DNA of 64,000 bases from Clostridiales bacterium (lineage in GTDB: Bacteria > Bacillota > Clostridia > Saccharofermentanales > Saccharofermentanaceae): assembly GCA_017961235.1 (NCBI GenBank), contig JAGCXQ010000032.1, forward strand, positions 1 to 64,000, read 5' to 3'. Every line of letters starts with the position of its first letter. Within the stretch, counting starts at the first letter, position 1. This document shows positions 8,776 through 62,243 of this stretch, in pieces. The notes beneath the pieces are model-generated. The model searched no databases, had not been told where the DNA came from, and saw nothing but the letters and a program-made list of their open reading frames with translations. Both the position numbers and the translations under genes were made by a program.

Positions 8776-8797
8776 GCAAAATCAATAGCAAGTCGCG

Positions 8798-8826: not shown

Positions 8827-8861
8827 TGTATAAAACTTGATTCAAAACAGGAGGAATCGGG

Positions 8862-9548: not shown

Positions 9549-9566
9549 GTAAGAAGGAGAGAACGC

Positions 9567-11500: not shown

Positions 11501-11612
11501 GGAGCCTTCCCCTCGGGACCGTCCACCCCAAGATACACCTATAACAAATCTGTCATTCTGCTTTCCCCTCTTTTGTGTTAAAGTATAGGACGTTGAAAAA
11601 CAAAGGGGATGA

Positions 11613-12770: not shown

Positions 12771-12860
12771 TTTAAACTTCACTTAAAGTTCGGGGTACAT
12801 AATGAAATCGTGAAGCATATAGATTTCATAACAACTCCCACCTTATTACCCGTAGAAATG

Positions 12861-12889
12861 GCTGTCTCCCGGAGACAGCTTTTTCTTTT
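12861..12889 (+). terminator. Rho-independent terminator
   Basis: GCTGTCTCC and GGAGACAGC form a perfect stem around a minimal loop, followed by TTTTTCTTTT. It ends the transglutaminase lipoprotein transcript and isolates the phosphosignalling island downstream. Confidence 0.9.
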
Positions 12890-12947
12890 GTCCGAAAAGA
12901 TGGGAACGAGAGTTTCTTGATCGGCCGGATCCGGCAAAGTTTTCTAT

Positions 12948-12975
12948 TTGTTAATGAATAGACTACGCATATAAG
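12948..12975 (+). promoter_or_regulatory. Promoter of the phosphatase/kinase island
   Basis: TTGTTA (12948-12953) and TATAAG (12970-12975) are separated by 16 bp, about 90 bp before the first PP2C gene. It is the best promoter-like pair in the gap after the terminator. Confidence 0.5.
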
Positions 12976-13064
12976 AGTAAAATGTTTTTGTGGTATAAAT
13001 CTTCTCGTGGGTCGCAAAATGTGACTTGAAAGATAAAATGGAGACAAAAAGAGACTAAGGGCAT

Positions 13065-13796: not shown

Positions 13797-13802
13797 GCAC
13801 AA

Positions 13803-14594: not shown

Positions 14595-14611
14595 CGTAGG
14601 AGGATTTTGAA

Positions 14612-44955: not shown

Positions 44956-44987
44956 GAATAAACGAAAAAATGAACGGATGTGTGACT

Positions 44988-45878
44988 ATGAGCCTTCAAA
45001 GAAAACATTTCGATATTCTGGTTGCTCTGGCCGAGTCAAAGGAAGCGCTGACGCAGCGCGATCTGGAGAAGATTACTGAGTATTCTCTAGGGACGATCAA
45101 CAAAGTCTATCGTGAACTCGTGACGGATGGACTGGTCGATGCAGGCAGAATCACCGACAAAGGAATCGAGGCGCTGGAACCGTATCGGGCGAAGCGGGCA
45201 GTGTTCATTGCGGCGGGTTTCGGATCCAGAATGGTACCGATCACGCTCAATACGCCGAAGCCGCTGGTGCGTGTGAAGGGCAAGAGGATCATCGATACGC
45301 TTCTGGATGCATGTCTTGAGGCGGGGATCGAGGAGATCTATATCGTCAGAGGGTATCTCGGCGAGCAGTTCGACCAGCTCCTGTATAAGTATCCGATGAT
45401 TCATCTTCTGGATAATCCTGTGTATAACGAAGCCAATAACATCAGTAGCGCGATGGTGGCAAGGAATCTGTTCTCAAGCTCTTATGTTTTCGAGGCGGAT
45501 CTGGTGCTCTCTAATCCGAAGATCATCACCAGGTACCACTATACTTCCGACTTCCTTGCGATCCCGAAGGACAGAACGGATGACTGGTGCTTCGTTGTCA
45601 AAGACGGCGTGATCAAGGAAGAAAAAGTCGGCGGTGAAAACTGCTGGCAGATGGTCGGCATCTCTTTCTGGAACAAAGAAGACGGTGAGAAACTGGCAGA
45701 AGATGTTCCGGCTGTATTCTCCGGTCCGGGCGGAAAAGAACGCTACTGGGAGCAGGTGCCGCTCGTATATAAGAAAGAGAACTATAAAGTCGAGGTCCGC
45801 GAGTGCAAGGAAGATGACATCATCGAGATCGATACTTTCCGTGAGCTAAAAGAACTCGACCCGGCCTATGATGTATAA
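44988..45878 (+). CDS. Winged-helix / LicC-like nucleotidyltransferase (candidate CMP-AEP synthetase)
   Basis: The product has 296 residues. Residues 1-60 form a winged helix (QRKHFDILVALAESKE, then LGTINKVYRELVTDGLV). From about 68 it is a sugar-phosphate-type nucleotidyltransferase with FIAAGFGSRMVPITLNTPKP, the NTP-binding loop, and an EADLVLS metal site. LicC makes CDP-choline and PntC makes CMP-AEP with the same fold. Because genes for AEP synthesis follow directly, CMP-AEP is the best guess. The start at 44988 has GGATGTG upstream; ATG 44970 is an alternative. The symbol pntC is not assigned because the activity is inferred. Confidence 0.8.
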   Translation: MSLQRKHFDILVALAESKEALTQRDLEKITEYSLGTINKVYRELVTDGLVDAGRITDKGIEALEPYRAKRAVFIAAGFGSRMVPITLNTPKPLVRVKGKRIIDTLLDACLEAGIEEIYIVRGYLGEQFDQLLYKYPMIHLLDNPVYNEANNISSAMVARNLFSSSYVFEADLVLSNPKIITRYHYTSDFLAIPKDRTDDWCFVVKDGVIKEEKVGGENCWQMVGISFWNKEDGEKLAEDVPAVFSGPGGKERYWEQVPLVYKKENYKVEVRECKEDDIIEIDTFRELKELDPAYDV

Positions 45879-45953: not shown

Positions 45954-47084
45954 ATGGAACCAGTAAAAAGAAATATCCTGTTAAATCCGGGTCCGTCCAC
46001 GACGACCGATACAGTAAAGTATGCGCAGGTCGTACCGGATATCTGCCCGCGTGAGAAAGAATTTGCCGGCCTGATGAAGAGCCTTCGTGAGGATCTCGTA
46101 AAAGTTGTTCACGGTGACCTTCAGGAATACACTTCCGTTTTGTTCTGCGGCTCGGGCACGATCAATATCGATGTCTGCATCAACTCGCTTCTTCCGGAAG
46201 GAAAGAAGGTCCTGGTGATCAATAACGGCGCATACTCTTCCCGTGCGGTCGAGATCTGCCAGTACTACGGACTTCCGCATATCGATCTGAAGTTCCCGGT
46301 AGATCAGCGTCCGGACCTCTCGGTGGTCGAGGAGACGATGAAGAACAACCCGGACATTGGACTTGTCCATACGACACATAACGAGACGGGAACAGGTATC
46401 CTGAATCCGATCCGTGAGATCGGTGCGCTGGTCCATAAATACGGCGCGATCTTCACAGTCGATACGACAAGCACCTATGCGATGCGCCCGATCAATATCA
46501 AGGAAGATAACGTCGATTTCCTGATGGCTTCCGCGCAAAAAGGACTCATGGCGATGACCGGTCTTTCTTTCGTGATCGGTAACCGCGCGATCCTGGAAGC
46601 TTCTGCGAATAACCCGAAGAGAAGCTACTACTGTAATCTCTTCCTGCAGTATGACTGCTTCGAGAAGACAGGTGAGATGCACTTCACTCCGCCGGTCCAG
46701 ACGATCTATGCGACGATCCAGGCCTTGAAGGAATACTGGGCAGAAGGTGAAGAAGCGAAGTGGGCACGTCATACCCGTGTCTTTGATGCGATAAACGAAG
46801 GACTGGAAGAACTTGGTTTCCGTCAGGTCATCAAGCCGGAATGGAGGACAGGCCTAGTCTCTTCCGCAATCTATCCGGACGATCCGAACTGGAGCTTCGA
46901 GAAGGTGCATGACTACTGCTATGAGCGCGGTTTCACCATCTATCCCGGAAAGATCTCGACGACGAATACATTCCGCCTCTGCGCACTTGGTGCGATCGAT
47001 GCACCGGATATCAAGGATTTCTTTAAGGTGTTCCGCGAGGCACTTGAGACGACCGGCGTGAAGATCCCGGTACAGTACAAGTAA
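45954..47084 (+). CDS. 2-aminoethylphosphonate transaminase-like (PhnW family)
   Basis: The product has 376 residues and is a fold-type I PLP enzyme. It begins ILLNPGPSTTTDTVK, has FCGSGTINIDV, HNETGTG, and FTVDTTSTYA for the PLP Asp, and SAQKGLM with the Schiff-base Lys at about 195. This is the serine-glyoxylate/AEP aminotransferase group; the neighbours (PEP mutase and phosphonopyruvate decarboxylase) point to conversion of phosphonoacetaldehyde to AEP. Used in the synthetic direction, it completes AEP. It lies 75 bp after the nucleotidyltransferase and 48 bp before the mutase. Confidence 0.88.
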   Translation: MEPVKRNILLNPGPSTTTDTVKYAQVVPDICPREKEFAGLMKSLREDLVKVVHGDLQEYTSVLFCGSGTINIDVCINSLLPEGKKVLVINNGAYSSRAVEICQYYGLPHIDLKFPVDQRPDLSVVEETMKNNPDIGLVHTTHNETGTGILNPIREIGALVHKYGAIFTVDTTSTYAMRPINIKEDNVDFLMASAQKGLMAMTGLSFVIGNRAILEASANNPKRSYYCNLFLQYDCFEKTGEMHFTPPVQTIYATIQALKEYWAEGEEAKWARHTRVFDAINEGLEELGFRQVIKPEWRTGLVSSAIYPDDPNWSFEKVHDYCYERGFTIYPGKISTTNTFRLCALGAIDAPDIKDFFKVFREALETTGVKIPVQYK

Positions 47085-47132: not shown

Positions 47133-48428
47133 ATGAAAACAGCATATACATGTTTCTGTACAGACGTGATCCATGAAGGACACATGAACATCATCAACGA
47201 AGCAAAAAAACTCGGTAAAGTCATCATCGGATGCCTTTCCGATCAGGTCCTGATCCGCTATAACAAGTTCCCGACGATCTCGCAGGATGAGCGTATGCGT
47301 CTTTATAAGACGATCCCGGGCGTGGATCAGGTCGTTCTGCAGGAGCAGATGCAGTACGATGACGTGATCGAACTCATTCACCCGGATTATGTCGTTCATG
47401 GCGATAACTGGAAAGAGGGCCCGGAGAGCACGCTGCGCGCACATGTTCAGGAACTCCTTTCCGCATATGGCGGTGAGCTCGTCGATGTTCCTTATACCTT
47501 CAATGACAAGGTCAGAAAGATCGACCTGCAGCTCCGTGAGAAGCTGGCGATGCCGGAATATAGAAGAAAGAGATTAAGACAGCTCATCGAGATGACACCG
47601 ATCGTGAAGGCGATGGAGGCACACAGCGGCCTGACAGGCCTTATCGTTGAGAAGACAGTCGTTGAGCACGAAGGAAAGCTCGACCAGTTCGACGCGATGT
47701 GGGTCAGCTCCCTCTGCGACAGTACTGCGAAGGGTAAGCCGGACATCGAGCTCGTCGATATGACCTCCCGTTTCAGAACGATCGAAGATATCACGGAAGT
47801 TACCACGAAGCCGATCATCTTTGACGGTGATACCGGCGGACTGACCGAGCACTTCGTATATACAGTAAGATCTCTCGAGAGACTCGGCGTTTCTGCCGTT
47901 ATCATCGAGGATAAGAAGGGCCTTAAGAAGAACTCCCTCTTCGGAAATGAAGTCAAGCAGACACAGGCAACGATCGAGGAGTTCTCCGAGAAGATCGCTG
48001 CCGGTAAAAAAGCACAGCTTACCGACGACTTCATGATCATCGCCCGTATCGAGAGCCTTATCCTCGAGCAGGGCATGGAAGATGCACTTGAGCGTGCTTT
48101 TGCCTTTGTAAAAGCAGGCGCCGACGGCATCATGATCCACAGCAGAAAGAAAGATCCGGCTGAGATCTGCGAGTTCTGCGACAAGTTCCGTGCCGTGGAT
48201 CCGAAGACACCGATCGTCGTCGTTCCGACAAGCTTTAATACCATCACGGAAGATGAACTTGCTGCTCATGGCGTCAACATCGTCATCTACGCCAACCAGC
48301 TGACAAGATCCGCATTCCCGGCGATGCAGCAGACCGCGGAAGATATCCTGAAGTATCACCGTGCAAAAGAAGTCGATGACAGACTCATGTCCATCAAGAA
48401 CATCATCACGCTGATCGACGAGATCTGA
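47133..48428 (+). CDS. Cytidylyltransferase-PEP mutase fusion
   Basis: The product has 431 residues. Residues 1-130 are a TagD-like nucleotidyltransferase domain with IHEGHMNII (HxGH) and ISQDERMR. Residues 150-431 are phosphoenolpyruvate mutase with IFDGDTGG and EDKKGLKKNS (about 259-268), the loop that separates mutases from isocitrate-lyase relatives. It makes the C-P bond by turning PEP into phosphonopyruvate. Such N-terminal fusions are known in phosphonate clusters. Two nucleotidyltransferase domains in one cluster is notable. AAGGAGAATC precedes the ATG. Confidence 0.93.
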   Translation: MKTAYTCFCTDVIHEGHMNIINEAKKLGKVIIGCLSDQVLIRYNKFPTISQDERMRLYKTIPGVDQVVLQEQMQYDDVIELIHPDYVVHGDNWKEGPESTLRAHVQELLSAYGGELVDVPYTFNDKVRKIDLQLREKLAMPEYRRKRLRQLIEMTPIVKAMEAHSGLTGLIVEKTVVEHEGKLDQFDAMWVSSLCDSTAKGKPDIELVDMTSRFRTIEDITEVTTKPIIFDGDTGGLTEHFVYTVRSLERLGVSAVIIEDKKGLKKNSLFGNEVKQTQATIEEFSEKIAAGKKAQLTDDFMIIARIESLILEQGMEDALERAFAFVKAGADGIMIHSRKKDPAEICEFCDKFRAVDPKTPIVVVPTSFNTITEDELAAHGVNIVIYANQLTRSAFPAMQQTAEDILKYHRAKEVDDRLMSIKNIITLIDEI

Positions 48429-48502: not shown

Positions 48503-49624
48503 ATGAAAGTTGAAAAACTTGTTGATATCATTGGAGCAGATTTTTATACCGGTGTTCCGGATTCCCAGCTAAAAGCACTGTGCAATTACCTGATGCATAC
48601 CTATGGCATCGATGCGCATCACCATGTGATCGCGGCAAACGAGGGTAACTGCACGGCTCTGGCGGCAGGATACCACCTCGCCACAGGCAAGGTCCCGGTC
48701 GTCTATATGCAGAACAGCGGTGAGGGAAACATCATCAACCCGGTCGCCAGCCTTCTGAATGATAAGGTATATGCGATCCCGACTATCTTCATCATCGGCT
48801 GGCGCGGCGAGCCCGGCATCCACGATGAACCGCAGCATATCTATCAGGGTGAGGTTACGATCAAGCTTCTGGACGATATGGGTATCGCAAGCTTTGCGAT
48901 CGGAAAAGACACGACCGATGAGGAAGTGGAAGCGAAGATGGACGAGTTCAGAAAGATCCTTGCGGAAGGTAAGGATGTCGCATTTGTTATCCGAAAGGGC
49001 GCTCTCTCCTACGATGAGAAAGTCGTCTATGAGAACGATAACACCATGGTCAGAGAAGAGATCATCCAGCACATCGTGGCCGTCAGTGAAGAAGACCCGA
49101 TCATCTCCACCACAGGTAAGGCGTCACGAGAGCTTTTCGAGACGCGTGTAGCAAACGGCCAGAGCCATAAGTATGACTTCCTGACTGTCGGATCGATGGG
49201 CCACAGCTCCTCGATCGCACTGGGTGTCGCGATCAATAAGCCGAACCAGAAGATCTGGTGTGTCGATGGTGACGGCGCGGTGCTGATGCACATGGGTTCC
49301 ATGGCGCTCCTTGGTTCCAACCAGCCGAAGAATCTCGTACATATCGTGATCAATAACGGCGCACATGAGACCGTCGGCGGCATGCCTACAGTCATGGGTG
49401 ATGTCGATCTCGTCGGCGTGGCCAAGGCCTGCGGTTATCCGTATGCTGTCCGCGTCAATGATTTTGAGGAACTTGACCGCGAGCTGAATCTTGCCAAGGG
49501 ATTAAATGAACTCTGTCTGATCGAAGTCATGTGCAGTATCGGTGCACGTGACGACCTCGGCCGTCCGACCACGACAGCTCTTGAGAATAAGCAGAATTTC
49601 ATGGAGTATATCGCAACGCTGTAA
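48503..49624 (+). CDS. Phosphonopyruvate decarboxylase
   Basis: The product has 373 residues and is a TPP enzyme. DFYTGVPDSQLK opens the domain, ANEGNCTALAAGYHLATG carries the catalytic Glu, and GWRGEPGIHDEPQH marks the phosphonopyruvate decarboxylase family. The TPP/Mg site is GDGAVLMHMGS, ending at INNGAHETVGG. It pulls the unfavourable PEP mutase equilibrium forward by giving phosphonoacetaldehyde. AGGAGAAGA precedes the ATG, 74 bp after the mutase gene. Its stop codon is the first element of a repeat block. Confidence 0.95.
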   Translation: MKVEKLVDIIGADFYTGVPDSQLKALCNYLMHTYGIDAHHHVIAANEGNCTALAAGYHLATGKVPVVYMQNSGEGNIINPVASLLNDKVYAIPTIFIIGWRGEPGIHDEPQHIYQGEVTIKLLDDMGIASFAIGKDTTDEEVEAKMDEFRKILAEGKDVAFVIRKGALSYDEKVVYENDNTMVREEIIQHIVAVSEEDPIISTTGKASRELFETRVANGQSHKYDFLTVGSMGHSSSIALGVAINKPNQKIWCVDGDGAVLMHMGSMALLGSNQPKNLVHIVINNGAHETVGGMPTVMGDVDLVGVAKACGYPYAVRVNDFEELDRELNLAKGLNELCLIEVMCSIGARDDLGRPTTTALENKQNFMEYIATL

Positions 49625-49704: not shown

Positions 49705-51114
49705 ATGGCTCATCTGACGACGTATTCGTGCAGAAACTGCGGAGGCGTCCTGATCAAGGACCAGATGCAGGAGGTACTCGAATGTCCTTTTTGCGGAAAT
49801 GCATATGACCTTGTAAGAATGCACAGTGACGAATATCTGTCCCGTGCCCAGGTCAATATGCAGCAGATGGAATTTCATGCGGCAAAGGAAAAGTATGAAA
49901 CGGTCTTAAGTAAAGACCCGCAGAATTTTGACGCGCTCCAGGGACTTGTATTGTGTTCCGGTAAGGTCCAGTCCGAAAAAGAACTCCGTACGCCGGGAAA
50001 AATGAAAGACCGTGCATTTGATGAGATGATGGCGGCGGCAGATGATGCGAAGAAGAGAGCCGCCCCGGAGCATGCGGAATATTTCTCCGTGCTCCATCAG
50101 CTCACCGAACTTGCGAAGAATCACCAGCTTACTGATAAAAGGATAGATTCTCTTTCGGAAGCTTCCTCTGAAAAATTCCATAGATTCGCGCTCCAGGATG
50201 TTGTCAGGACCGCCTATTATACTCTGATCTGCACTCTGATCGGTGTTACTATTCGTGTATGGACACAAGTTCCTGAGGACGCGAAATTAATGCTCACGAT
50301 CGTCCTGATCCTGGTGGGATTATTGGTCGTTTCTTTTATCGTGGATAATCTGTTCTTAAAACCATTTCTGAAAAGAGACACGCATAAGGAGTTATCTAAG
50401 CTTCATAATGCCAAGGATACCAGTGTCCTGAATCAAAAAGCACTGGAAAAGGACTATGCGGAACTGTATCAGAAGCTCGAGAGCCTAAGACCTGAGAAGC
50501 AGGACGCCTCTGCTGCACCTGCCTACAATTCTTCGTTAGTAAAAGATCTTATTTCAGAAGATTCGGAAGGCGCCTTGAGCTGCTCGCAGTGCGGAGGGAA
50601 GCTTCTGCCGGATAAAACAAATCGAGCATACCGGTGTACGTCCTGCGGAGTCGCATTCGGAAATACGATCCTCTTTGACGAAAATGCTGTAGAGAACGCG
50701 AAAAAGTCGATCCTTGACGGAGAGTTTAATGAGGCGGATCTGTGGTGCCGCTGTGCACTGACGACGCAGCCGCATAATTTCTATGCGCTGCAAAGACGCG
50801 TCCTGTGTGCCGGGAAATGGAAAATGATGAGTGATCTTGTCGCCCAGAAGACGCTGACATCGATCCGGAAAAAGAGCGTGCTGGCGCGGCTTAATGAAGC
50901 GAAGGAGCATGCGGCTACTCCCTATGATGCGGAGTATTTCCAAAAGTGCGATGAAATGATCGATCTGCATGAACGGTACTGGGCAAAGACGAGAGAGTAC
51001 AGTAAAGATCCGCAGGCGATCAATTCCTTAAAACAGGAACTAGAGGCGAAAGGCCGCGAGATCTACGATATCGATAACATGCGTGAACAAAGCGCGATGT
51101 CAGGTGTTATCTGA
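49705..51114 (+). CDS. Duplicated zinc-ribbon/TPR-like membrane protein
   Basis: The product has 469 residues in two similar halves. Each has a zinc ribbon (CRNCG with CPFCG; CSQCG with CTSCG) followed by TPR-like helices with matching phrases: FDALQGLVLCSGKVQSEKEL in the first and FYALQRRVLCAGKWKMMSDL in the second. Two membrane helices (about 172-187 and 195-215) sit between them. It is not a known phosphonate enzyme, so it may be a bystander or a scaffold for the membrane proteins nearby. AAGGAGGTT precedes the ATG. It converges with the YidC-sulfatase operon. Confidence 0.72.
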   Translation: MAHLTTYSCRNCGGVLIKDQMQEVLECPFCGNAYDLVRMHSDEYLSRAQVNMQQMEFHAAKEKYETVLSKDPQNFDALQGLVLCSGKVQSEKELRTPGKMKDRAFDEMMAAADDAKKRAAPEHAEYFSVLHQLTELAKNHQLTDKRIDSLSEASSEKFHRFALQDVVRTAYYTLICTLIGVTIRVWTQVPEDAKLMLTIVLILVGLLVVSFIVDNLFLKPFLKRDTHKELSKLHNAKDTSVLNQKALEKDYAELYQKLESLRPEKQDASAAPAYNSSLVKDLISEDSEGALSCSQCGGKLLPDKTNRAYRCTSCGVAFGNTILFDENAVENAKKSILDGEFNEADLWCRCALTTQPHNFYALQRRVLCAGKWKMMSDLVAQKTLTSIRKKSVLARLNEAKEHAATPYDAEYFQKCDEMIDLHERYWAKTREYSKDPQAINSLKQELEAKGREIYDIDNMREQSAMSGVI

Positions 51115-51160: not shown

Positions 51161-53788
51161 TCACTTTTCTTCCTGTTTCCAGTTCTTCTTATCAAAGATA
51201 TCCGGACCGTTGAGAGAATACCAGATCGTGTCGGTAAAGACATTGCCGGCGTCCTTCTGGAGATCCCAGCGGTCTGTGTACATGATCAGGAGTTTGTCGG
51301 CATCCTTCGCTTCGGGCTGGAAGATCGGGCGGGAAGTGAAGGGATTGACCGGATCGTCGATCAGGCCGTTCATCGCAAGATACGGAGTATCGGCGTTTGT
51401 CATGAAGGTGTAGTCCGTCTTAAAGTCGCCCGTCGCACCGAAGTCCTTTACGAAAAGCACCGGGTTATACGCCATTGCGTCCTCGGGGTTATATTCCGCG
51501 CCGGCATTCGCACCATCGAGGAAGAGCATGTCCTCATAGTGCTCCAGCGGCCAGCCGTGGTCGGATACGATGATGATCCTGGTGTTGTCATAGACACCGA
51601 TCTCCTTGAGATGATCCATCCACCGGCCAAGCTGCAGCCATGCCGCCATATTGCACTGGTAGTGCGTGAGCTTATAGCGGGTGCGGGGCTCCATCGCAAG
51701 GGTCCTGCCATCGCAGGTGAAGCGGTCGGTGTGCGTCTTATCAAACTCCGTGTTATCGACTTCATACTGTGGCGCATATTCCGGCTCCTGGAGCGGCATC
51801 GTGTTATGTGCCGTGCCGTTCTGGATCAGGAAGAAATGGTTCTTGCCGGAGGTATCTGCCTTCGTCAGGGAAGGCAGCGCATGCAGAGATTCGTAGGAAT
51901 CACGGAAAAGATTCATATATGCCGGCGAGATGATGTAGTGTGCTTCATCGTCGCCGAAAGTCTGCATCGAGAGCTTACTGTTATCGGGCGCGAAGTAGGT
52001 GCCATCCGTATAGACGACCGGCTGGAAAATCAGCGGGGACGCCTTCATGAGGCTGTAGCAGAAGAAGTTTCTCTTCCAGGTGGACATGATCTGCTTATCC
52101 GACGCATCCGAATCACGGAAAAGTCCGAGCTCGGTGTTATAGGCCTTTATTCCCGGATACGGATCGTAGATCGACAGATCCGGGATCGCGCTATAGCCGG
52201 CAAACGGCGGGTCAAATACCGTGACATCATATCCGTTCTCAGAAAAAAGCACCGGCATCGTGAGCAGGGCTTCGTCGTGCTTCTGAACGAGGGAGACATC
52301 GGATCTGCTGTTGATCGCATCCGGCGTATAGTCATACCCTCCGAAAAGCGCCGGCGCCGCGATGACGGTGCGCATACCGAAGGAAAGAGTATTGGGATAC
52401 CAGGTAAATCCCGAGAACTGGGAAACCAGTTCCGGACGCTCCTGGAACATATATGGGATATAGGCGGAGATCGCGCGGTCCACCATGACGACGACTACGT
52501 TCTTGCCGTCTTTACTGAGTTCTACGGTAGGAAGATCCTTCGTGGTGCTCTCCATCACGCGGCGGATCTTCGGCATCTCAGAGCTGATCTGATAGATGTT
52601 ATAGCAGGAGATGGCGGTGGCTACGATCACGAGGATCGGCGCCAGGAAACGGACGATGGCAGTGCTTTTGACGAAGAGGAAAATAACGGCAGCGATAATG
52701 ACAGCTACAAGAAGCAGGTTCAGCATCGCTGATGCGGCATCGTGCACGAGTCCTGTGTCGAACTGAAGGTCGGATGAGAGGATACTCTCGCTTTTGCCGA
52801 AGAGAAGGAAGTTCGCTGTCCCGATGAAGGCGAGGCACCAGATGGCGCAGGCCGCGCGCTTACGGTTCTTCGGACCCGCGAGGTAGTAGAAAAGTCCGCC
52901 CCAGATCACAAATGCACCTGTTGCGGTGAGAAGCGAGTAGATGATGTATCGTACCGGTGAGTGGACGGAGGTCATCAGGACGAACTCGGAGGTCGAGGAC
53001 GAGATGACGAAGGACGGGATCAGTGCACCGAGGAAAACACTCAGGAAGATCGCGCCGAGAAGGAAAAGCCTGTTGGTCGAAGGATCTTTCTCGACGGAAG
53101 GCTTCTCCGCCTTTTTCGGCTTCCTGTTCACGATGTTCTTGATCAGTGAGAAGATGTTGTTCAGCGTCCAGTAGAGGACCAGTCCCGACGGGGAGTTATA
53201 AAGAAGCACGAGGAAGATCAGTGCCATACCGTGGAGCTGGATCTTGTCCTTGAACTTCAGGCCCTTCGTATAGATCTCCGAAGAGACGACATTGATCAGG
53301 GTCATCAGGACAGGAAGAACGTTGATCGTAAGGCCGCCGATCGTAAGAAGCTTGTCCGGCTGGCCGAGGTCCTTAATGATCCAGAAGCTCGTGCCGCGGA
53401 GGACCGGCAGGTCCGAAAGGAAATTATATGCCGCGATGAAGAACGGGATCTGCAGAAGAAGTGCGATCGAGGATCTCAGCGCGTAGATCGGCTTATAGTT
53501 GTTCTCTTTATAGAAGGCCTGGAGCATCATGTAACGCTCGTCGCCCTTAAAGGTCTTCTTGATGTGATCGACGAAGGGCTCCATGCGTGTCTGCCGGTCT
53601 TTCTCCTGCGCCTGGATCGCATCCGCCCGGTTATAGAAGGGGAGAAGCAGGAGATTCACGACGAGACTTAAGGGGAAGATCGCCGCGCCGTAGCTTCGCA
53701 GAAAATGGTACGCGGCCGCATAGACCGCCTCCAGGATCAGCGTTAGAGGTGAGAGTAATAGTTGATATAGGATACTCCCGAACGACAC
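51161..53788 (-). CDS. YidC/Oxa1-like membrane domain fused to a sulfatase/LTA-synthase-like domain (second copy)
   Basis: The product has 875 residues. Residues 1-225 match the YidC/Oxa1 core, with the amphipathic loop and helix order kept (FPLSLVVNLLLLPFYNRAD, NSPSGLVLYWTLNNIFSL). The Arg that follows the two valines in insertases is Asn. More membrane helices (about 240-400) follow. From about 415 there is an alkaline-phosphatase-superfamily domain: VVVVMVDRAIS, YPNTLSFGMRTVIAAPALFGG with a candidate nucleophile Thr, and IIIVSDHGWPLE. It may transfer a phosphorus-bearing group onto a surface polymer. GTG start after AAGGG, 3 bp behind the transferase gene. Confidence 0.85.
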   Translation of the reverse strand: MSFGSILYQLLLSPLTLILEAVYAAAYHFLRSYGAAIFPLSLVVNLLLLPFYNRADAIQAQEKDRQTRMEPFVDHIKKTFKGDERYMMLQAFYKENNYKPIYALRSSIALLLQIPFFIAAYNFLSDLPVLRGTSFWIIKDLGQPDKLLTIGGLTINVLPVLMTLINVVSSEIYTKGLKFKDKIQLHGMALIFLVLLYNSPSGLVLYWTLNNIFSLIKNIVNRKPKKAEKPSVEKDPSTNRLFLLGAIFLSVFLGALIPSFVISSSTSEFVLMTSVHSPVRYIIYSLLTATGAFVIWGGLFYYLAGPKNRKRAACAIWCLAFIGTANFLLFGKSESILSSDLQFDTGLVHDAASAMLNLLLVAVIIAAVIFLFVKSTAIVRFLAPILVIVATAISCYNIYQISSEMPKIRRVMESTTKDLPTVELSKDGKNVVVVMVDRAISAYIPYMFQERPELVSQFSGFTWYPNTLSFGMRTVIAAPALFGGYDYTPDAINSRSDVSLVQKHDEALLTMPVLFSENGYDVTVFDPPFAGYSAIPDLSIYDPYPGIKAYNTELGLFRDSDASDKQIMSTWKRNFFCYSLMKASPLIFQPVVYTDGTYFAPDNSKLSMQTFGDDEAHYIISPAYMNLFRDSYESLHALPSLTKADTSGKNHFFLIQNGTAHNTMPLQEPEYAPQYEVDNTEFDKTHTDRFTCDGRTLAMEPRTRYKLTHYQCNMAAWLQLGRWMDHLKEIGVYDNTRIIIVSDHGWPLEHYEDMLFLDGANAGAEYNPEDAMAYNPVLFVKDFGATGDFKTDYTFMTNADTPYLAMNGLIDDPVNPFTSRPIFQPEAKDADKLLIMYTDRWDLQKDAGNVFTDTIWYSLNGPDIFDKKNWKQEEK

Positions 53789-53791
53789 TTC

Positions 53792-55138
53792 TTACCCTTT
53801 CTTTTTCGATTTCTTCTTCGAATCCTTTTCGGATACTTCTTCGGTTTTCTTCGTCAGTTCCTCATACTTGGAGACGAGGTAGTCGCAGACACGGGTGGTG
53901 CCTTCGCCCTGATATGCCCAGGCTTCGTCTCTTACCTGATGACGGCTCTCGGCAAAAGAACTGTCCTCGAGGCAGTCATCGATCATCTTCTTTAAGTCGC
54001 CTCTGTTTTCCTTCGTGAGCTTGGCGCCCAGTCTCGGGATAACGCTTAAGCCCCACGGGAGACGCTTGAGCCACCATGCATCATAAGGAGATGCATCGAA
54101 CTCGGTGTCTGCGCAGATGACCGGCTTATCGAATACGAGCGAGAAGTCGAAGATAACACCACTGAAGTCGGAGATCAGGATATCGGAGCGGTTCAGGGCA
54201 TCGAAGTTATCGGTATCTCTGTTCCACTCGATCTGATCACCATCCGGGAACTCCGCCATCAGCTTATCCATCAGTTCTTTTTCCGAAGTAAAGGACTGCG
54301 GGTGCGGACGGACGATGATGTGATATCCGGTCGCGAGAAGATCGCGGATGAATTCTTCACCATAGCGGGAAAGGATCGCGCTCGCGCCCCAGGAAGGAGC
54401 GAGAAGCACAGTACGGGTCTTTCTGGAAGAATCAGCGGAGGGTGCTTTTTCCGAATCGGAATCAGAGGAAGAACTGTCAGAAGCAGCTGCTTTTCTCTCC
54501 TCGAATTTTCTCTTCTTTTCATCCATAAAAGGCGAGCCCGTCAGGACAAGTTCTTTTGCCTTCAGATGGCGGACCTCCTCGAGGTCACGCGTGTCATCGA
54601 TCTGGAACTGGCCGGAGCAGAGGACCGCATCGTAGAAGTCGATACCGAACATTCTGTAAGTCGTCATCTCGGCAGGGGAGTGCGGGATGTGGACGTAGTA
54701 CTTGGCGTCCTTGCTACGCTTCCACTGATAGACATCCACGCCCGGAGTAGTGGAGAGAACGATCGTTGCCTTGACGAAGTTGAGCTTCGCAAATGCCTTG
54801 TTACCGGGACCGATGCACTCGGTCTTGACGTGCTCCATCTCGGATTTCAGGCCCGGATCATCCTCGGAGGCGGTCATATAGACGCAGTCAAAACCTCTCT
54901 TATCCATCTCCTTCAGGATCGGCTCGAAGACCGACCAGTAACGCTTGTCATCGGAAAAGATCGCGAGCTTGATCGCCTTATCGGAATCATCCTTCGCTTT
55001 ACCGCCGCTCAAGAGAAAACGGATCTTGACCCACAGGCCTTTGAAAGCAAATCTCGCTACGCCGAGAAGACCGATCAGGATCGCAAAGAGCATGGAACCC
55101 GTACCCGGGTCGATATAAAGTCGTACGATATTCATCAT
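53792..55138 (-). CDS. CDP-glycerol glycerophosphotransferase-like protein (TagB/TagF family)
   Basis: The product has 448 residues. A membrane-associated N-terminus (about 9-45) precedes a GT-B-type fold with STTPGVDVYQWKRS, VHIPHSPAEMTTYRMFG, LAPSWGASAILSRYG, VRPHPQS and LISDFSGVIFDFSLVF. These are hallmarks of the Glyphos_transf family, which adds glycerol- or ribitol-phosphate to teichoic acids. A Ser/Asp-rich insert lies around residue 215-240, and the tail is Lys/Glu-rich. Its start overlaps the stop of the upstream YidC-sulfatase gene, with GAGGAG just before; TTG 55141 and ATG 55135 are nearby alternatives. Confidence 0.88.
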   Translation of the reverse strand: MMNIVRLYIDPGTGSMLFAILIGLLGVARFAFKGLWVKIRFLLSGGKAKDDSDKAIKLAIFSDDKRYWSVFEPILKEMDKRGFDCVYMTASEDDPGLKSEMEHVKTECIGPGNKAFAKLNFVKATIVLSTTPGVDVYQWKRSKDAKYYVHIPHSPAEMTTYRMFGIDFYDAVLCSGQFQIDDTRDLEEVRHLKAKELVLTGSPFMDEKKRKFEERKAAASDSSSSDSDSEKAPSADSSRKTRTVLLAPSWGASAILSRYGEEFIRDLLATGYHIIVRPHPQSFTSEKELMDKLMAEFPDGDQIEWNRDTDNFDALNRSDILISDFSGVIFDFSLVFDKPVICADTEFDASPYDAWWLKRLPWGLSVIPRLGAKLTKENRGDLKKMIDDCLEDSSFAESRHQVRDEAWAYQGEGTTRVCDYLVSKYEELTKKTEEVSEKDSKKKSKKKG

Positions 55139-57918
55139 CAATTCTCCTCTTTTTTCCAGTTCTTCTTATCCAGTACGTTCTGGTTCATAAGCTCGTACCA
55201 GATGGTGTTGGTGAATTTGTTGCCGGCATTGGACTCGGCAGACCAGTTGTCCGTGTAAAGGACATACATCGGGCCTTTCTTCGCATCCGGCTGATAGATC
55301 GGATTTCCGGTGAACGGGTTGAGCGGGTTATCCAGAAGACTGCTCATCGCAAGTGTCGGAGTATCCGCATTGGTCATGAAGGTGTAGTCTGTCTTAAACT
55401 CTCCGGAATCTCCGAAGTCCTTATAGAACAGAAGCGGGTTATAACCCATGGCATCTTCCGCATTATAGAGCGTATCCGGATCGCCGTCGCCGAAGAGCAG
55501 GTCGTCGAAGCTTCCGAGACCCCAGGCGTGGTCGGATACGATGATGATTCTGGTATTCTCATAAACGCCCAGTTCGCGCAGGTGATCCATCCACTCGCCG
55601 AGACGGTTCATGACGGCCATATCGCACTGGTAATGCGCCATCTGATAGGTAGTATCCATATGCATCGTGACACCGTTCAGAGAGAATCGGTCCGTATGCG
55701 TGCGGTCATATTCACCGTTCTTAACCACATCGGCCGGTTCGTAATCCGGCTCCTGCAGAGGGATGATGTTATGGGTGGCACTGTTCTGCATCATGAAGAA
55801 ATGGTTCTTGCCGGTGTCCTTCGCGACTGTGATGGACGGAAGCGCACGCATGACCTCGTAGGAATTCATGAAGGAATCCATCAGCGCCGGCGGTACAGAA
55901 TACTGCTCGATGGCGCCGCCCTGGATCAGGGCTGTGCTGGATGTACCCGGCTGGAAGTAGATACCCGTGGAATAGACGGCCGGCTGCATGAAGAGCGGCG
56001 CGACTTTCATTACCGAGTAGCAGAAGAAGTTACGCTTCCAGATCGATTTCATATTGCCGGCGATGTCCGAAGAATCACGGAACTGGCCGAACTCGGTGTT
56101 ATAAGCCTTGATCTGCGGATAATCCTCGAAGAGCGACAGATCCGGGATCAGGCTGTAGCCTGCATACGGCGGATCCATAACGGTAACGTCGTAACCTGCC
56201 TCCGAGAAGAGGATCGGCATCGTGAGGATCGCCTGATCGTGCTTCTCCTTGAGGGAGAACTCCGGCCGTTCGTTTGTTGCTCTCGGAGTAAAATCATACC
56301 CGCCGAAAAGCGCCGGTGCGCCGACGAGTGTTCTCGTTCCGTAGGAGAGAGTATTCGGGTAGTAGGTGAAGCCTCTGAACTGCTCGGCAAGCTTCGGGTT
56401 CTCATTGAACATATACGGAATGTAGGAAGAGACGGCACGGTCGATCATGAGAACGACGACGTTCTTTCCGTCTTTGCTGAAGGTCAGTGTCGGACGCTCG
56501 GAAGCGGAATTCTCTTCAATAACTCTGCGGATATTCGGCATCGCTTTCTGGATGTCATAGCAGTTATAGATGGTCATCGCGCCGATCGCCACAAGAAGGA
56601 TCGGAGAGATGAACTTGATGACCTGTGCTTTTTTCTTATAGACCACGATGATCAGGGCCGTAAGTGCGGCGATCATCAGAAGATCCAGAAAGACCTTATT
56701 CTTCGCGATATCCAGTGCGACATCGAAGCGAAGGTCGGTCGTCAGGGAGTTACTGTTCTGACCGAAGACCATATAGTTTGCCACGCCGGTGATCGCGCAG
56801 ACCCACATCGCGCCGGTAAAGATGCGCTTCGCTTTATTGCTTGCAAGATAGTAGAAAAGTCCGCTCCATACAAGGAAGAAACCGGCCGCTGTGAGGAAGG
56901 CGAAGAATACATAGCGGTTCGGAGAATGTACGTCCGAAGTGATGACGAACTCAAGCGGGGAGGACTTGATGATCGCAGAAGGGATCAGGCCGCCCAGAAG
57001 GATCGTCAGGAATGCAGCAGCGCCGAAGAAGAGACGGTGATCCGGCTTTTTCTCCTCGGCCGCGGAGACAAGTGCTTTTGCCTTACGGCGGGGAAGAAGA
57101 CCGATAAGGAGCGGGATCAGCATCAGTGCGCCAAAGGCGAGGACGCCGAGGCGGTAGTTCGGAAGACCGTGGAAGAATCCGAAGCCGTAAACCAGGACTG
57201 CCAGACCGCCGATACCGAAGAGGATACCAGCTGTGCGGACCTTGTTCTTCGTGCCGTTAACGACGTTCTTAAGAAGCGAGAAGATGTTGTTGAGCGTCCA
57301 GTACAGAACCAGTCCGGACGGGGAATCGTAGAGGAGTACGAGGAAGATCAGGGCCATGCCGTGGAGCATGATCTTGTCCTTGAACTTCAGACCCTTGGTG
57401 TAGATCTCCGAGGAAACGACATTGATCAGCGTCATCAGGATCGGCAGGACATTGATCGTGATGCCGCCGATGACGATAAGGCCGTCCGGCTTGGAAAGGT
57501 CACTGAAGCACAGGAACTTCGCACCCTGAAGGTCCGGAAGCTTCGACAGGAAGTTATACGCTGCGATGAAGAACGGAACTTCGAGGACAAGCGCGATCGA
57601 GGATCTTACCGCGTAGATCGGCTTGTAGTTGTGCTCTTTATAGAGGGCCTGGAGCATCATGAAGCGCTCATCGCCCTTAAAGGTTTTCTTGATATGCTCG
57701 ACAAATGGAGCCATTTTCTTTTCTCTTTCGCGCTCCTCTTCCTGGATCTTATCTGCACGGTTATAGAACGGCAGAAGCAGGAGATTGACCACGAGAGACA
57801 GCGGGAAGATCGCCGCGCCGCTCGATCTCAGAAGCTCGAACGCAGTACTGTACACCGCTTCAAAAATCAAGGTCAGCGGCGACAGAAAGAGTTGGTACAT
57901 GATTGATCCAAAAGACAT
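55138..57918 (-). CDS. YidC/Oxa1-like membrane domain fused to a sulfatase/LTA-synthase-like domain (first copy)
   Basis: The product has 926 residues and the same layout as the copy at 51161: a YidC-like domain (1-225, with LSLVVNLLLLPFYNRADKIQ and Asn again at the Arg position), a longer membrane middle (about 226-460), then the phosphatase-superfamily domain. The latter shows VVVLMIDRAVS, YPNTLSYGTRTLVGAPALFGG, and IIIVSDHAWGLG, where the Gly after DH is Ala. Both copies keep the Asp, Thr and Asp-His positions. This is the first gene of the three-gene operon; GAAGGAAG precedes the ATG. The family is known in sequence databases of Clostridia but lacks a proven role. Confidence 0.85.
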   Translation of the reverse strand: MSFGSIMYQLFLSPLTLIFEAVYSTAFELLRSSGAAIFPLSLVVNLLLLPFYNRADKIQEEEREREKKMAPFVEHIKKTFKGDERFMMLQALYKEHNYKPIYAVRSSIALVLEVPFFIAAYNFLSKLPDLQGAKFLCFSDLSKPDGLIVIGGITINVLPILMTLINVVSSEIYTKGLKFKDKIMLHGMALIFLVLLYDSPSGLVLYWTLNNIFSLLKNVVNGTKNKVRTAGILFGIGGLAVLVYGFGFFHGLPNYRLGVLAFGALMLIPLLIGLLPRRKAKALVSAAEEKKPDHRLFFGAAAFLTILLGGLIPSAIIKSSPLEFVITSDVHSPNRYVFFAFLTAAGFFLVWSGLFYYLASNKAKRIFTGAMWVCAITGVANYMVFGQNSNSLTTDLRFDVALDIAKNKVFLDLLMIAALTALIIVVYKKKAQVIKFISPILLVAIGAMTIYNCYDIQKAMPNIRRVIEENSASERPTLTFSKDGKNVVVLMIDRAVSSYIPYMFNENPKLAEQFRGFTYYPNTLSYGTRTLVGAPALFGGYDFTPRATNERPEFSLKEKHDQAILTMPILFSEAGYDVTVMDPPYAGYSLIPDLSLFEDYPQIKAYNTEFGQFRDSSDIAGNMKSIWKRNFFCYSVMKVAPLFMQPAVYSTGIYFQPGTSSTALIQGGAIEQYSVPPALMDSFMNSYEVMRALPSITVAKDTGKNHFFMMQNSATHNIIPLQEPDYEPADVVKNGEYDRTHTDRFSLNGVTMHMDTTYQMAHYQCDMAVMNRLGEWMDHLRELGVYENTRIIIVSDHAWGLGSFDDLLFGDGDPDTLYNAEDAMGYNPLLFYKDFGDSGEFKTDYTFMTNADTPTLAMSSLLDNPLNPFTGNPIYQPDAKKGPMYVLYTDNWSAESNAGNKFTNTIWYELMNQNVLDKKNWKKEEN

Positions 57919-58308: not shown

Positions 58309-60525
58309 ATGATGAACGGAAAAATCGATGCGATGCATATTTCTTTTGACGCGCCGGCGAAGTGCTGGGAAGAGGCGCTGCCGGTCGGAAACGGAAGACT
58401 TGGCGGCATGGCGTTCGGACTTCCATATTCGGAGCGGATCCAGCTCAATGAGGACAGCGTCTGGTTCGGCGGACCGCAGAACAGAAATAACCCGTCCGCT
58501 CTGGAAAACCTTCCGAAGATCCGCTCGCTCATCATGGAGGGACGCATCCGCGAGGCGCAGGAACTCTGCACATTTGCGCTGTCCGGACTTCCGGAGGAAC
58601 AGCGCCACTACGAGCCTCTCGGGAATTTATATATTGAGTTTGACGGGACAGAGATGGATTTCTCGGATTATTCCCGTGAGCTTGATCTTGCAACGGCAAC
58701 CGTCACGACCTCCTTTACGATGAAGCGCACGATCGGTGGCGAGCTTTGTGATGTAAAGTACACCCGTGAAGTCATCGCGAGCTACCCGCAAAATGCGATG
58801 CTTATCCATCTGACGGCTGATCGTCCCGGGGCGCTGAACTTCCATGCGCAGCTCGGACGCGGTGCCGGAAAACCCTGGGAAGAGATCCCATATCAGAAGC
58901 AGACGATACGAAGACAGTGCTATAACGGTTTCTGCGACAGCATTGTCGGAAAAGCCGGCGGCATCCAGATCATGGAAGCAACATCCGGAGGAAACGGTGT
59001 GCATATGGCCTGCGGGATCAAGGTCATCGCCAAGGGCGGAAGTGCTGAACTGATCGGGAACACTACACGCATTCATAACGCGGATGAGGCACTGATCATC
59101 CTCTGCGCGGATACGTCTTTCCGCGAGGAGGACCCGGTAGGTGCGGTGCTGGCAAGACTTCAGAAGGTAAGTGCTTTTGCGGGTGAAGAGAAATCTCTGG
59201 GATGCGAAGAACTGAGCAAGGCATGGGAAGACCTCTATCAGGAACATGTCGCTGACTACAGATCGCTCTTTGACCGCGTGAAACTACATATCGACGGGCA
59301 GGAGGAAGTCGAGCGCTTCTTCCAGTTCGGACGCTACCTCATGATCGCCGGCTCGCGTCCGGGATCGCTGCCGCTGAACCTCCAGGGCATCTGGAATCAG
59401 GACTTCGCGCCGATCTGGGGCAGCCGGTTCACGATCAATATCAATGCTGAGATGAATTACTGGCCGGCGATGGTGACGAACCTTGCCGAGTGCCAGGAGC
59501 CTCTGATCGAGCTGATCAAGAGGGTGCGCAAGAACGGCCGCGTAACGGCGCGGGAGATGTATGGCTGCGGCGGCTTCATGGCGCACCATAACACGGACAT
59601 CTGGGGCGATACCGCGCCGCAGGACGTCTGCATCAGCTCGAGTTACTGGGTCATGGGCGGAGCGTGGCTGGCGCTGCATATCTGGGAGCAGTATCTCTTC
59701 ACGATGGATCTTGATTTCCTGCGGGAGCACTATGACATCATGCGCGAGGCGGCCGAGTTCGTGATGGACTACCTCATCGAAGATGGGGAGTACCTCGTGA
59801 CATGTCCGACGCTCTCACCAGAGAATACCTACATCCTTCCTAATGGCGAAAAAGGCGTGATCTGCAAGGGCGCGTCGATGGATAATCAGATCATCACTGA
59901 GCTTCTAAAGGCCTGCATTTCTGCGGAAGAAGTACTCGCCACTAATGACTCTGCGTCGATCGCCAAGCGTGCTGCGGAGGTGCTTACTCGCATCGCGCCG
60001 ATCCGCGTCGGCAAGCATGGTCAGATCATGGAATGGAACGAAGACTACGAAGAAGCCGAGACGGGACACCGGCATATCTCCCAGCTGTTCGCACTCTACC
60101 CCGGATCGCAGATCACACGATCGGAACAAGTGCTTTTCGAGGCGGCAAAGAAAACGATCGAACGACGTTTGTCATACGGCGGCGGGCATTCCGGATGGAG
60201 CCGGGCATGGATCATCAACATGTATGCGCGGCTCGGGGAAGGGGAGAAGGCCTGCGAGAACCTGATGCACCTGATCCGGGAGCAGACGCTGCCGAATCTT
60301 TTCGATAATCATCCGCCGTTTCAGATCGACGGGAACTTCGGCGCGACGGCCGGCATCGCGGAGATGCTGGTGCAGAGCCATGAGGAGGATGTGGCTTTCT
60401 TGCCGGCACTGCCGGAAGCGTGGGCGAAGCACGGTATCGTCGAGGGGCTCAGGCTGCGCGGCGGTAAGATCGTGGAGGTGCTTGAGTGGCGCGACGGGGA
60501 GGTCGTGCGGCTCGAGATTCGATGA
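58309..60525 (+). CDS. GH95 family glycoside hydrolase (alpha-L-fucosidase type)
   Basis: The product has 738 residues. The N-terminal beta domain has WEEALPVGNGRLGGMAFG and IQLNEDSVWFGGP, the GH95 opening. The (alpha/alpha)6 barrel shows NLQGIWN, FTININAEMNYWP with the two catalytic Asn, TLSPEN with the acid-side Glu, GHRHISQLFALYPG, and HPPFQIDGNFGATAGIAEM with the conserved Asp. GH95 inverts alpha-1,2-fucosides, and some members cleave alpha-galactosides. There is no signal peptide, so it works on imported sugars. The N-terminus MMNGK has no strong ribosome site; GAGGTTAGAA lies nearby. Confidence 0.92.
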   Translation: MMNGKIDAMHISFDAPAKCWEEALPVGNGRLGGMAFGLPYSERIQLNEDSVWFGGPQNRNNPSALENLPKIRSLIMEGRIREAQELCTFALSGLPEEQRHYEPLGNLYIEFDGTEMDFSDYSRELDLATATVTTSFTMKRTIGGELCDVKYTREVIASYPQNAMLIHLTADRPGALNFHAQLGRGAGKPWEEIPYQKQTIRRQCYNGFCDSIVGKAGGIQIMEATSGGNGVHMACGIKVIAKGGSAELIGNTTRIHNADEALIILCADTSFREEDPVGAVLARLQKVSAFAGEEKSLGCEELSKAWEDLYQEHVADYRSLFDRVKLHIDGQEEVERFFQFGRYLMIAGSRPGSLPLNLQGIWNQDFAPIWGSRFTININAEMNYWPAMVTNLAECQEPLIELIKRVRKNGRVTAREMYGCGGFMAHHNTDIWGDTAPQDVCISSSYWVMGGAWLALHIWEQYLFTMDLDFLREHYDIMREAAEFVMDYLIEDGEYLVTCPTLSPENTYILPNGEKGVICKGASMDNQIITELLKACISAEEVLATNDSASIAKRAAEVLTRIAPIRVGKHGQIMEWNEDYEEAETGHRHISQLFALYPGSQITRSEQVLFEAAKKTIERRLSYGGGHSGWSRAWIINMYARLGEGEKACENLMHLIREQTLPNLFDNHPPFQIDGNFGATAGIAEMLVQSHEEDVAFLPALPEAWAKHGIVEGLRLRGGKIVEVLEWRDGEVVRLEIR

Positions 60526-60668
60526 GTTGTTCGACAAATTGTTTGACATTCATAGGGCTAGTGTAAAACAAAACGTTGAATGATTCTCAGGATGGGGTTT
60601 GCAACCGCTAGAAAATCCCCCGTTTCTCTGCTACTATTAACTTGTTGAAAAGTAGAGGGGGGTAAGTT

Positions 60669-62243
60669 ATGTCTACGACTAATATCGTTATTCTGATTGC
60701 GATCGGCGCGTATCTTCTCATGATGATTGCGATCGGCGCTATCTTCAGCAGAAAGAACAAGAACACAGACGATTTCTACCTGGGCGGCAGAAAGCTCGGC
60801 CCGATCGTTACCGCGATGAGTGCAGAGGCTTCCGACATGAGCTCCTGGCTCCTGATGGGACTTCCGGCGGTTGCCCTGATGACGGGTATCCCGGAGGCAT
60901 TCTGGACGGCGCTCGGCCTGGCGATGGGTACATACCTGAACTGGCTCTTCGTTGCGAAAAGACTCCGTGTCTATACGCAGAAAGTCGATGCGGTCACGCT
61001 CCCTGATTTCTTTAGTAAGCGCTTCGGCGACAAGCATCACATCATCACATTTGTTGCCGCAGTCTTCATCGTCATTTTCTTCGTACCATACACCGCGTCG
61101 GGATTCGCCGCCTGCGGTAAGCTCTTTTCCTCGCTGTTCGATGTTTCCTACACCTACGCCATGATCGCCAGCGCGGTCGTCATCGTGCTCTACTGCACGC
61201 TCGGCGGATTCCTCGCGGCATCGACCACGGACTTCATCCAGTCCATCATCATGACGGTCGCACTTCTGGTCGTTCTCGGTGTCGGCGAAGCAGTGACAAA
61301 CGGCATGGGCAATGTTTTCAGCAATGTACAGAATATGGACGGCTACCTCGATGTCTTTAAGGGCTTTGACGTCGCGAAAAGCACTGTCGGAAGCTACGGC
61401 GCGCTGACGGTGGCTTCGACGCTCGCTTGGGGCCTCGGCTACTTCGGTATGCCGCACATCCTCCTTCGCTTCATGGCGATCGAAGATAAGAAGAAACTGA
61501 AGCTGTCCCGCCGTATCGCTTCCATCTGGGTAGTGATCTCCATGGGTATCGCAGTCCTGATCGGTATCGTCGGATATTCTCTGATGAAGAATGGTATCGT
61601 CCCGGCATATGCAGATGCATCTTCCGCGGAGACCGTCATCGTAGATGTCGCGAAGTGGATCGCATCGCACGGCTACATCCCGGCGTTTGTCGGTGGTGTT
61701 ATCCTCGCGGGTATCCTCGCATCCACGATGTCCACTGCGGACTCCCAGCTCCTGGCGGCAGCCTCTTCCGTCTCCCAGAACCTCGTTCAGGAGACATTTG
61801 GTAAGAAACTCTCTGAGAAAAAGGCCATGTGGCTCGCCCGTATCTGCGTTATCGTGATCTCTATCATCGCGGTATTCCTGGCGCTCGACCCGAGCAGCTC
61901 CGTATTCCGTATCGTATCCTTCGCATGGGCAGGATTCGGTGCTGTCTTCGGACCGATGGTTCTCTTCGGACTTTTCTGGAAGCGCACAAATAAGTGGGGC
62001 GCACTCGCCGGCATGCTTTCCGGCGGTATCACGATCTTCGTATGGAAGTTCGCTGTCCGTAAGGCTTGCGCAGGCACGATCCTGGATATCTATGAGCTCC
62101 TGCCGGCATTCATCATCGCCTGCATCCTCATCGTAGTGGTCAGCCTGATCACCAAGGCTCCGGAGAAAGAGATCGGAGAGACCTTCGAAGCTGTAAAAGC
62201 GGAGTGCAAAGCAGATCTGAAAGAAGAACTGACCAAGGCGTAA
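60669..62243 (+). CDS. putP: Sodium/solute symporter, PutP-like (proline)
   Basis: The product has 524 residues and about 13 membrane helices. DDFYLGGRKLGPIVTAMSAEASDMSSWLLMGLP is the SSS family start, with the Ala-Ser-Asp and Ser residues of the PutP sodium site; further on come TLPDFFSKRF and AGILASTMSTADSQLL. The AEASDMSSWLL wording is closest to Na+/proline symporters, so proline is the likely cargo, with other solutes possible. AGAGGGGGGTAAGTT precedes the ATG. A pair of 62-bp hairpin repeats follows. The gene symbol rests on similarity alone. Confidence 0.85.
   Translation: MSTTNIVILIAIGAYLLMMIAIGAIFSRKNKNTDDFYLGGRKLGPIVTAMSAEASDMSSWLLMGLPAVALMTGIPEAFWTALGLAMGTYLNWLFVAKRLRVYTQKVDAVTLPDFFSKRFGDKHHIITFVAAVFIVIFFVPYTASGFAACGKLFSSLFDVSYTYAMIASAVVIVLYCTLGGFLAASTTDFIQSIIMTVALLVVLGVGEAVTNGMGNVFSNVQNMDGYLDVFKGFDVAKSTVGSYGALTVASTLAWGLGYFGMPHILLRFMAIEDKKKLKLSRRIASIWVVISMGIAVLIGIVGYSLMKNGIVPAYADASSAETVIVDVAKWIASHGYIPAFVGGVILAGILASTMSTADSQLLAAASSVSQNLVQETFGKKLSEKKAMWLARICVIVISIIAVFLALDPSSSVFRIVSFAWAGFGAVFGPMVLFGLFWKRTNKWGALAGMLSGGITIFVWKFAVRKACAGTILDIYELLPAFIIACILIVVVSLITKAPEKEIGETFEAVKAECKADLKEELTKA

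Follow-up and report, generated by a model that had tools for sequence, protein, structure and literature searches.

The locus described here raises the question of what a YidC-like domain does once the arginine of its insertase groove has been exchanged and the domain has been joined to an enzyme. It lies in a stretch of 64,000 nt from a Clostridiales bacterium (GenBank assembly GCA_017961235.1, contig JAGCXQ010000032.1, positions 1 to 64,000), hereafter called the window, in which an initial annotation made from the letters alone had recognized two paralogous fusions of this kind on either side of a glycerophosphotransferase gene.

Organization of the locus and sampling of homologues

Three minus-strand ORFs were confirmed at positions 51161–57918, specifying fusion A, a TagF-like protein and fusion B (Table 1). 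As the end of fusion A overlaps the TagF-like gene by 4 bp, and only 3 bp separate the latter from fusion B, the three genes form a tight unit; the ORF layout and the PF04464 match of the middle gene agree with the arrangement initially proposed. Fusion A is made up of a YidC core (residues ∼1–222), a two-TM hairpin (226–274), a 5-TM segment (∼289–471) and an extracytoplasmic AP-superfamily domain (482–926). Fusion B carries DHG and has the same layout without the two-TM hairpin, which is thus an optional element; as it consists of two TMs, the catalytic domain would lie outside with or without it. The YidC core itself is genuine in both proteins, as had been claimed, with TIGR03592 over cut-off in each and the Pfam family 60KD_IMP matching the two fusions at E-values of 1.8e-23 and 2.8e-25, both over cut-off. 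The Pfam Sulfatase family was over cut-off in A (2.7e-9) and just under cut-off in B (2.7e-4). An AF2 model of fusion A (pLDDT 87.3) displayed the YidC core, the two-TM hairpin, five TMs and a C-terminal alpha/beta domain.

Table 1. Features of the fusion unit and of the head-group genes beside it (positions in the window)
Feature	Position	Strand	Evidence or remark
HTH + LicC/PntC-like nucleotidyltransferase (putative head-group cytidylyltransferase)	44970..45878	+	
PhnW-type 2-aminoethylphosphonate (AEP) aminotransferase	45954..47084	+	TIGR03301 over cut-off
PEP mutase with N-terminal cytidylyltransferase domain	47133..48428	+	TIGR02320 over cut-off; Ppm motif EDKxxxxxNS
Phosphonopyruvate decarboxylase	48503..49624	+	TIGR03297 over cut-off
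Fusion protein B, 875 aa	51161..53788	-	ORF, Pfam
YidC/Oxa1-like domain of B	53129..53695	-	TIGR03592 over cut-off
TagF-like GT-B transferase, 449 aa	53792..55141	-	ORF, Pfam, Foldseek
Fusion protein A, 926 aa	55138..57918	-	ORF, Pfam, AF2 model
YidC/Oxa1-like domain of A	57262..57819	-	TIGR03592 over cut-off; Asn45 in groove, without Arg

Additional genes surround these features. The AEP genes are separated from the fusion unit by the gene for a 469-aa protein of no clear family (49705–51114), which comprises two zinc-ribbon halves and a TM segment. A lipoprotein-like protein (43737–44765) bears a C-terminal (P)QAPVAP repeat, and the same family occurs near fusion genes in seven loci. A GH95-type glycosidase and a sodium:solute symporter-like gene (58309–62243) are conserved beside fusion A in most genus relatives.

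For comparative purposes, we assembled 110 fused homologues from the window, two other stretches of the same genome and loci on contigs of other genomes; the loci were retrieved with two peptide patterns from the YidC domain, and the best 80 were retained. Conservation in that domain is biased as a result, and key counts were redone without the pattern stretches. Most of the genomes are MAGs, and that of the window is 87 % complete. Among named records, the nearest were MAGs labelled Clostridiales or 'Mageeibacillus sp.', several of which came from the guts of ruminants. The fusion family as a whole was found across Clostridia and in one Negativicute, profile matches reaching 15 in a single genome. 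No plasmid match was found. The open-access literature searched yielded neither a description nor any biochemistry of such a fusion (YidC-sulfatase, YidC-EptA or YidC-LTA-synthase); these proteins apparently constitute a large, undescribed family of gut and rumen bacteria.

The groove of the YidC domain

Using an HMM alignment to solved YidC chains, we found Asn45 to align with R366 of E. coli YidC and the equivalent Arg of B. halodurans. Across the 110 fused homologues this position was occupied by N in 107, T in one and S in one, with a gap in the last, and never by Arg; a positive charge was present in 0 of the 109 readable sequences, and at <70 % identity Asn was retained in 86 of 88. By comparison, canonical YidCs of the same and related genomes (n = 30, retrieved with phmmer) had R in 29 cases and K in one, and the Arg-to-Asn exchange first read from the two proteins is therefore real. 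A charge in the groove has been called strictly conserved in all YidC homologues (PMC8920935), to which the fusion family is an exception.

The further claim that insertase function is doubtful on this account was overstated. E. coli YidC R366N is functional if residue 517 is hydrophilic or aromatic (PMC8920935), and Trp occupies the 517-equivalent site in 110/110 fused homologues; as such, loss of the Arg alone does not settle insertase function. This tolerance, along with a full YidC core that includes the cytoplasmic hairpin, speaks for a retained insertase, whereby the YidC domain would serve the TM helix of the TagF-like partner or a small client, and the fusion would only tie this activity to the enzyme. 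S. mutans YidC2 nevertheless argues the other way, since it natively has Trp at the 517 site, as the fusions do, and its R73 is essential unless that Trp is changed to Asn or Ser (PMC8920935). The near-absolute Asn, together with N166 and N210, points moreover to a changed substrate, and a separate canonical YidC was found in every genome checked, those examined keeping the charge. We therefore regard a retained insertase as unlikely.

The groove residues mapped from E. coli YidC are S41, N45, L49, L112, F116, N166, W207, N210 and S214, nearly all of which are close to invariant. Relative to E. coli YidC there are two polar exchanges, R366 to N and M475 to N, suggesting an uncharged, amide-rich groove. 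K/R105, which was present in 108/110 fusions, marks the cytoplasmic end of the following TM helix, a site at which Ser, Ala or Gly predominates in canonical YidCs; this residue may reach the groove and supply a positive charge from another helix. With the two stretches used as search patterns (F116 among them) left out, mean entropy was 1.14 for the YidC domain, 1.73 for the catalytic domain and 2.21 for the 5-TM part, and 0.20 for groove positions versus 0.94 across the remaining TM positions (fraction of random sets with a value as low, 0.0009). The idea of the YidC domain as a decaying leftover was dropped, given that it is the best conserved of the domains; the pattern of conservation indicates a groove that is kept polar but uncharged, retained rather than lost.

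YidC homologues and the two paralogues

Six YidC homologues were identified in the genome of the window, five of them fusions and one canonical. Two of the fusions lie in the window, two in a second A/TagF-like/B unit on contig C3 and one on its own on C22. The canonical yidC, which the initial annotation had suggested should be sought near rnpA, was indeed located there on contig C42 (rnpA upstream, jag and then mnmE downstream), and it carries the Arg within 'IIVRG'. Standalone YidCs of about 280–410 aa were present in 41/41 genomes checked, fusion-bearing ones included. The fusions are thus not the only YidC homologues of the genome, and the notion that they act as its insertase was dropped. 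They share with YidC/Oxa1/Alb3 insertases (E. coli YidC, B. halodurans YidC2) the five-TM core, the cytoplasmic hairpin and a polar groove, with TIGR03592 and PF02096 over cut-off, but differ in lacking the groove charge, in being fused to an enzyme, in lying outside the rnpA-yidC-jag locus and in having a canonical YidC alongside.

In a tree of the catalytic domain, A and B belonged to different clades with SH-aLRT support of 98 and 97, several species contributing orthologues to each, which marks the paralogues as old, retained lineages. Many loci have a single fusion with a single TagF-like gene, and an A/B pair is consequently not required. Of the two possibilities raised at the outset, a heterodimer is therefore not needed, whilst some division of labour is likely given the separate old lineages; A and B probably differ in the acceptor or head group that they serve. 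A class A penicillin-binding protein (L018, 8484–11027, on C3) is specified directly upstream of, and co-directionally with, the second fusion/TagF-like/fusion unit, and the same neighbour was seen in L038 and L047.

The fused catalytic domain

Asp493, Thr530, His716, Asp796 and His797 were each found in 110/110 fused homologues, in keeping with the phosphotransferase-type AP-superfamily domain, with Asp, Thr and Asp-His kept, that had been proposed. By analogy with the family, Thr530 would act as nucleophile, Asp493, Asp796 and His797 as metal ligands, and His716 in substrate binding. As all of these residues are invariant, the enzyme looks active, and the alternative of a dead enzyme was dropped. 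The residue following the DH pair, in contrast, was G in 97, A in nine and S in four homologues; the difference between DHG and DHA, on which the initial annotation had remarked, thus carries no weight.

Structural matches to the model of A included phosphonate monoester hydrolase (4uph; Z 20.9, rmsd 3.8, 315 aligned), choline sulfatase (6fny; Z 20.5), MCR-1 and EptA (5fgn; Z 18.3 for EptA), as well as LtaS and LtaP. PbgA (6xlp) matched the TM part and domain together (model residues 289–926; Z 19.8), with an rmsd of 13.4 over 403 residues as the two parts sit differently. With EptA/MCR-1, PbgA and LtaS the fusions share a 5-TM segment followed by an extracytoplasmic AP domain, and the invariant Asp, Thr, His and Asp-His. 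They fall, however, far below curated family cut-offs (19.4 bits versus 660 for the EptA NCBIfam model), possess the extra YidC domain and are tied to a TagF-like enzyme.

Since a phosphonate monoester hydrolase and a choline sulfatase are among the best structural matches, we considered whether the AP domain removes head groups or cleaves phosph(on)o-diesters, in recycling or remodelling, with no transfer. The formylglycine of those enzymes comes from a C/SxPxR motif. No C/S-x-P-x-R motif is present at the nucleophile position, which reads T530-L-V-G-A in A and is Thr in 110/110 homologues, as in Thr-dependent membrane transferases; this makes a Thr-dependent phosphotransferase more likely than a sulfatase, and a formylglycine sulfatase identity was rejected. 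As the repeated neighbours of the fusions are, in addition, biosynthetic, a purely hydrolytic role appears very improbable. Instead, the fused enzyme very likely decorates the cell surface with groups of the choline, ethanolamine or phosphonate type. This enzyme part of the system proposed below is well supported, with the reaction itself deduced from conserved residues and fold.

The TagF-like partner

The middle gene matched Glyphos_transf (PF04464) with an E-value of 9.1e-13 (48.3 bits versus a cut-off of 22.1), only the C-terminal half of the family aligning with the protein. Its AF2 model (pLDDT 88.6) has a GT-B fold and gave TagF (3l7k) as top Foldseek match (E 9.7e-12; Z 21.4). Fold and Pfam match are shared with the CDP-polyol phosphotransferases TagF, TarL and Cps3D, from which the partner differs in its length of 449 aa and its single N-terminal TM with an invariant YIDPGTG.ML motif. 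Its substrate is likely to be CMP-AEP or CDP-choline rather than CDP-glycerol.

The TagF-like gene adjoins a fusion on the same strand in 61/79 loci, and a fusion/TagF-like/fusion triad is present in 20 loci. Among 98 relatives, a strong TagF-like match was found in 45 of the 46 genomes with a fusion and in 0 of the 52 without, counts that are not independent as relatives share ancestry. Distant TagF-like relatives in longer frames of 650–930 aa were observed in G039, G052, G054, G079, G082, G085, G088, G094 and G096, eight of these nine genomes being without a fusion.

The almost obligatory association with a partner that has one TM and an invariant N-terminal motif might also be expected of a docking module, that is, a non-transporting YidC fold pairing with the TM helix of this protein and so bringing donor and transferase together, as Oxa1-superfamily proteins do with their partners in EMC or GET; a dimerization interface has been described for the Oxa1 superfamily (PMC8675477). 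This reading leaves unexplained why conservation is highest at the positions lining the groove, and we consider it quite improbable.

Neighbouring head-group genes

Head-group genes were found in about 29/79 loci, whilst ∼50/79 showed none in the flanking sequence retrieved, which was short in many cases. Choline kinase and EamA or BCCT transporters lie near the unit in L046, L060, L067, L073, L075 and L089, and a LicC-like gene with an APC permease in L051 and L058. CobD-like/cytidylyltransferase fusions are near the unit in L047, L054 and L072; a MobA-like nucleotidyltransferase fused to a CobD-like (threonine-phosphate decarboxylase) domain, which may make CDP-ethanolamine from phosphoserine, was located at 14092–15888 in L054, 6927–8732 in L072, 13035–14846 in L047 and 5340–7142 in L133. 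The head group would vary by locus, being 2-aminoethylphosphonate in the window, phosphocholine or, probably, phosphoethanolamine, where the AEP enzymes were assigned by family models and the products are those expected of them. PEP mutase was present in 42/46 genomes with a fusion versus 6/52 without, and lay ≤10 kb from the fusion in 25 of the 42 genomes having both. On the catalytic-domain tree, AEP neighbours occurred on at least four separate branches and choline on at least five; as the choline label was weakly clustered, head-group specificity is not readable from the sequence tree.

The clearest case, L133 (G053:C81), carries on one strand a TagF-like gene, a fusion, a CobD/cytidylyltransferase gene, three fusions, a triple-fused PEP mutase, an Fe-ADH and phosphonopyruvate decarboxylase. 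Its four fusion genes (2702–15204) share what looks like a single operon with activated head-group genes of two kinds; the PEP mutase is an NTP-transferase/cytidylyltransferase/PEP-mutase fusion, and the Fe-ADH replaces the AEP aminotransferase. The unit would seem to handle cytidylyl-activated amino-alkyl phosph(on)ates, and perhaps hydroxyethylphosphonate.

Head-group synthesis and a LicC/PntC-type cytidylyltransferase are features shared with the lic (phosphocholine) and pnt (phosphonate) pathways (PMC6697681). In contrast to these, no LicD-type transferase is present in the window unit, where we propose the TagF-like and YidC-fusion pair instead; one LicD-type gene lies elsewhere in the genome, on contig C24. 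That gene would suit a polymer route, in which a phospho-polymer or a decorated glycan is made or lengthened by the TagF-like enzyme on a lipid carrier inside, LicD or the TagF-like enzyme adds the head groups as decorations, the YidC fold helps the carrier-linked polymer across and the AP domain works outside in the manner of an LTA synthase, where it polymerizes or transfers units. The PF04464 and TagF fold matches, the presence of LtaS and LtaP among the AP matches, and LytR-CpsA-Psr, LicD or class A PBP genes near some loci are all consistent with this. Beside the unit, however, we saw no wall teichoic cassette or glycerol-phosphate supply gene, the recurring neighbours being amino-alkyl head-group genes, and the alignment to PF04464 is confined to its C-terminal half. 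Taken together, we view a polymer route as rather unlikely.

A proposed lipid-donor route

From the observed genes, conserved residues, folds and co-occurrence we infer a lipid donor, a crossing step and an acceptor, arranged in a membrane system that would attach zwitterionic phosph(on)o-head groups to a glycan or lipid of the cell surface, the lipid donor crossing via the YidC fold. Such a route is suggested by the combination, in one unit, of an enzyme for activated head groups inside, a polar groove facing the lipid and a phosphotransferase outside, and we would put its chances a little short of even. Neighbouring enzymes would make and cytidylyl-activate the head group, AEP here and phosphocholine or probably phosphoethanolamine elsewhere. 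The TagF-like GT-B enzyme, held by its one TM helix, would transfer the head group from CMP or CDP to a membrane lipid of the inner leaflet. This donor lipid would then pass to the outer leaflet by way of the polar, uncharged and strictly conserved groove of the YidC-fold domain, which is predicted to be open to both cytoplasm and lipid. Finally, the fused 5-TM and AP domain, kin of EptA/MCR, PbgA and LtaS, would use Thr530 and the metal ligands Asp493, Asp796 and His797 to move the head group from the lipid to an acceptor outside.

Lipid scrambling in vitro has been shown for purified E. coli YidC, and simulations place the path in the insertion groove (PMC10491306). The initial annotation had suggested that the groove might hold a lipid-linked polymer or substrate for the fused enzyme; its direction was right, and a lipid-linked substrate is the best reading, backed by gene context, with passage of the lipid as our extension. 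Counting against the lipid-donor model, the LicD-type transferase of the genome could use CMP-AEP directly, action of a TagF-like enzyme on a lipid instead of a growing polymer is not an established activity, and most loci have no head-group genes in their fetched, often short, flanks. More tentatively still, the family may form a flippase-transferase class, in which a YidC/Oxa1 fold that once inserted proteins would now serve solely to flip or scramble the lipid-linked donor of a phosph(on)o-head group, and would be fused to the enzyme acting on this donor outside.

Significance

Although Oxa1-superfamily insertases have recently proved able to scramble lipids in vitro, we know of no natural case in which lipid scrambling is the main job of such a protein. 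In the fusions, whose groove carries one near-absolute exchange and whose enzyme part would require a lipid of this kind, the insertase fold may have been redeployed from the movement of proteins to that of lipids. Were this true, it would provide a genetically separable system in which to test the Oxa1 fold as a lipid transporter. It would also supply, for gut and rumen Clostridia, where activation of the head group is known and its transfer is not, the late steps so far missing from the tailoring of the surface with phosphonate and phosphocholine.
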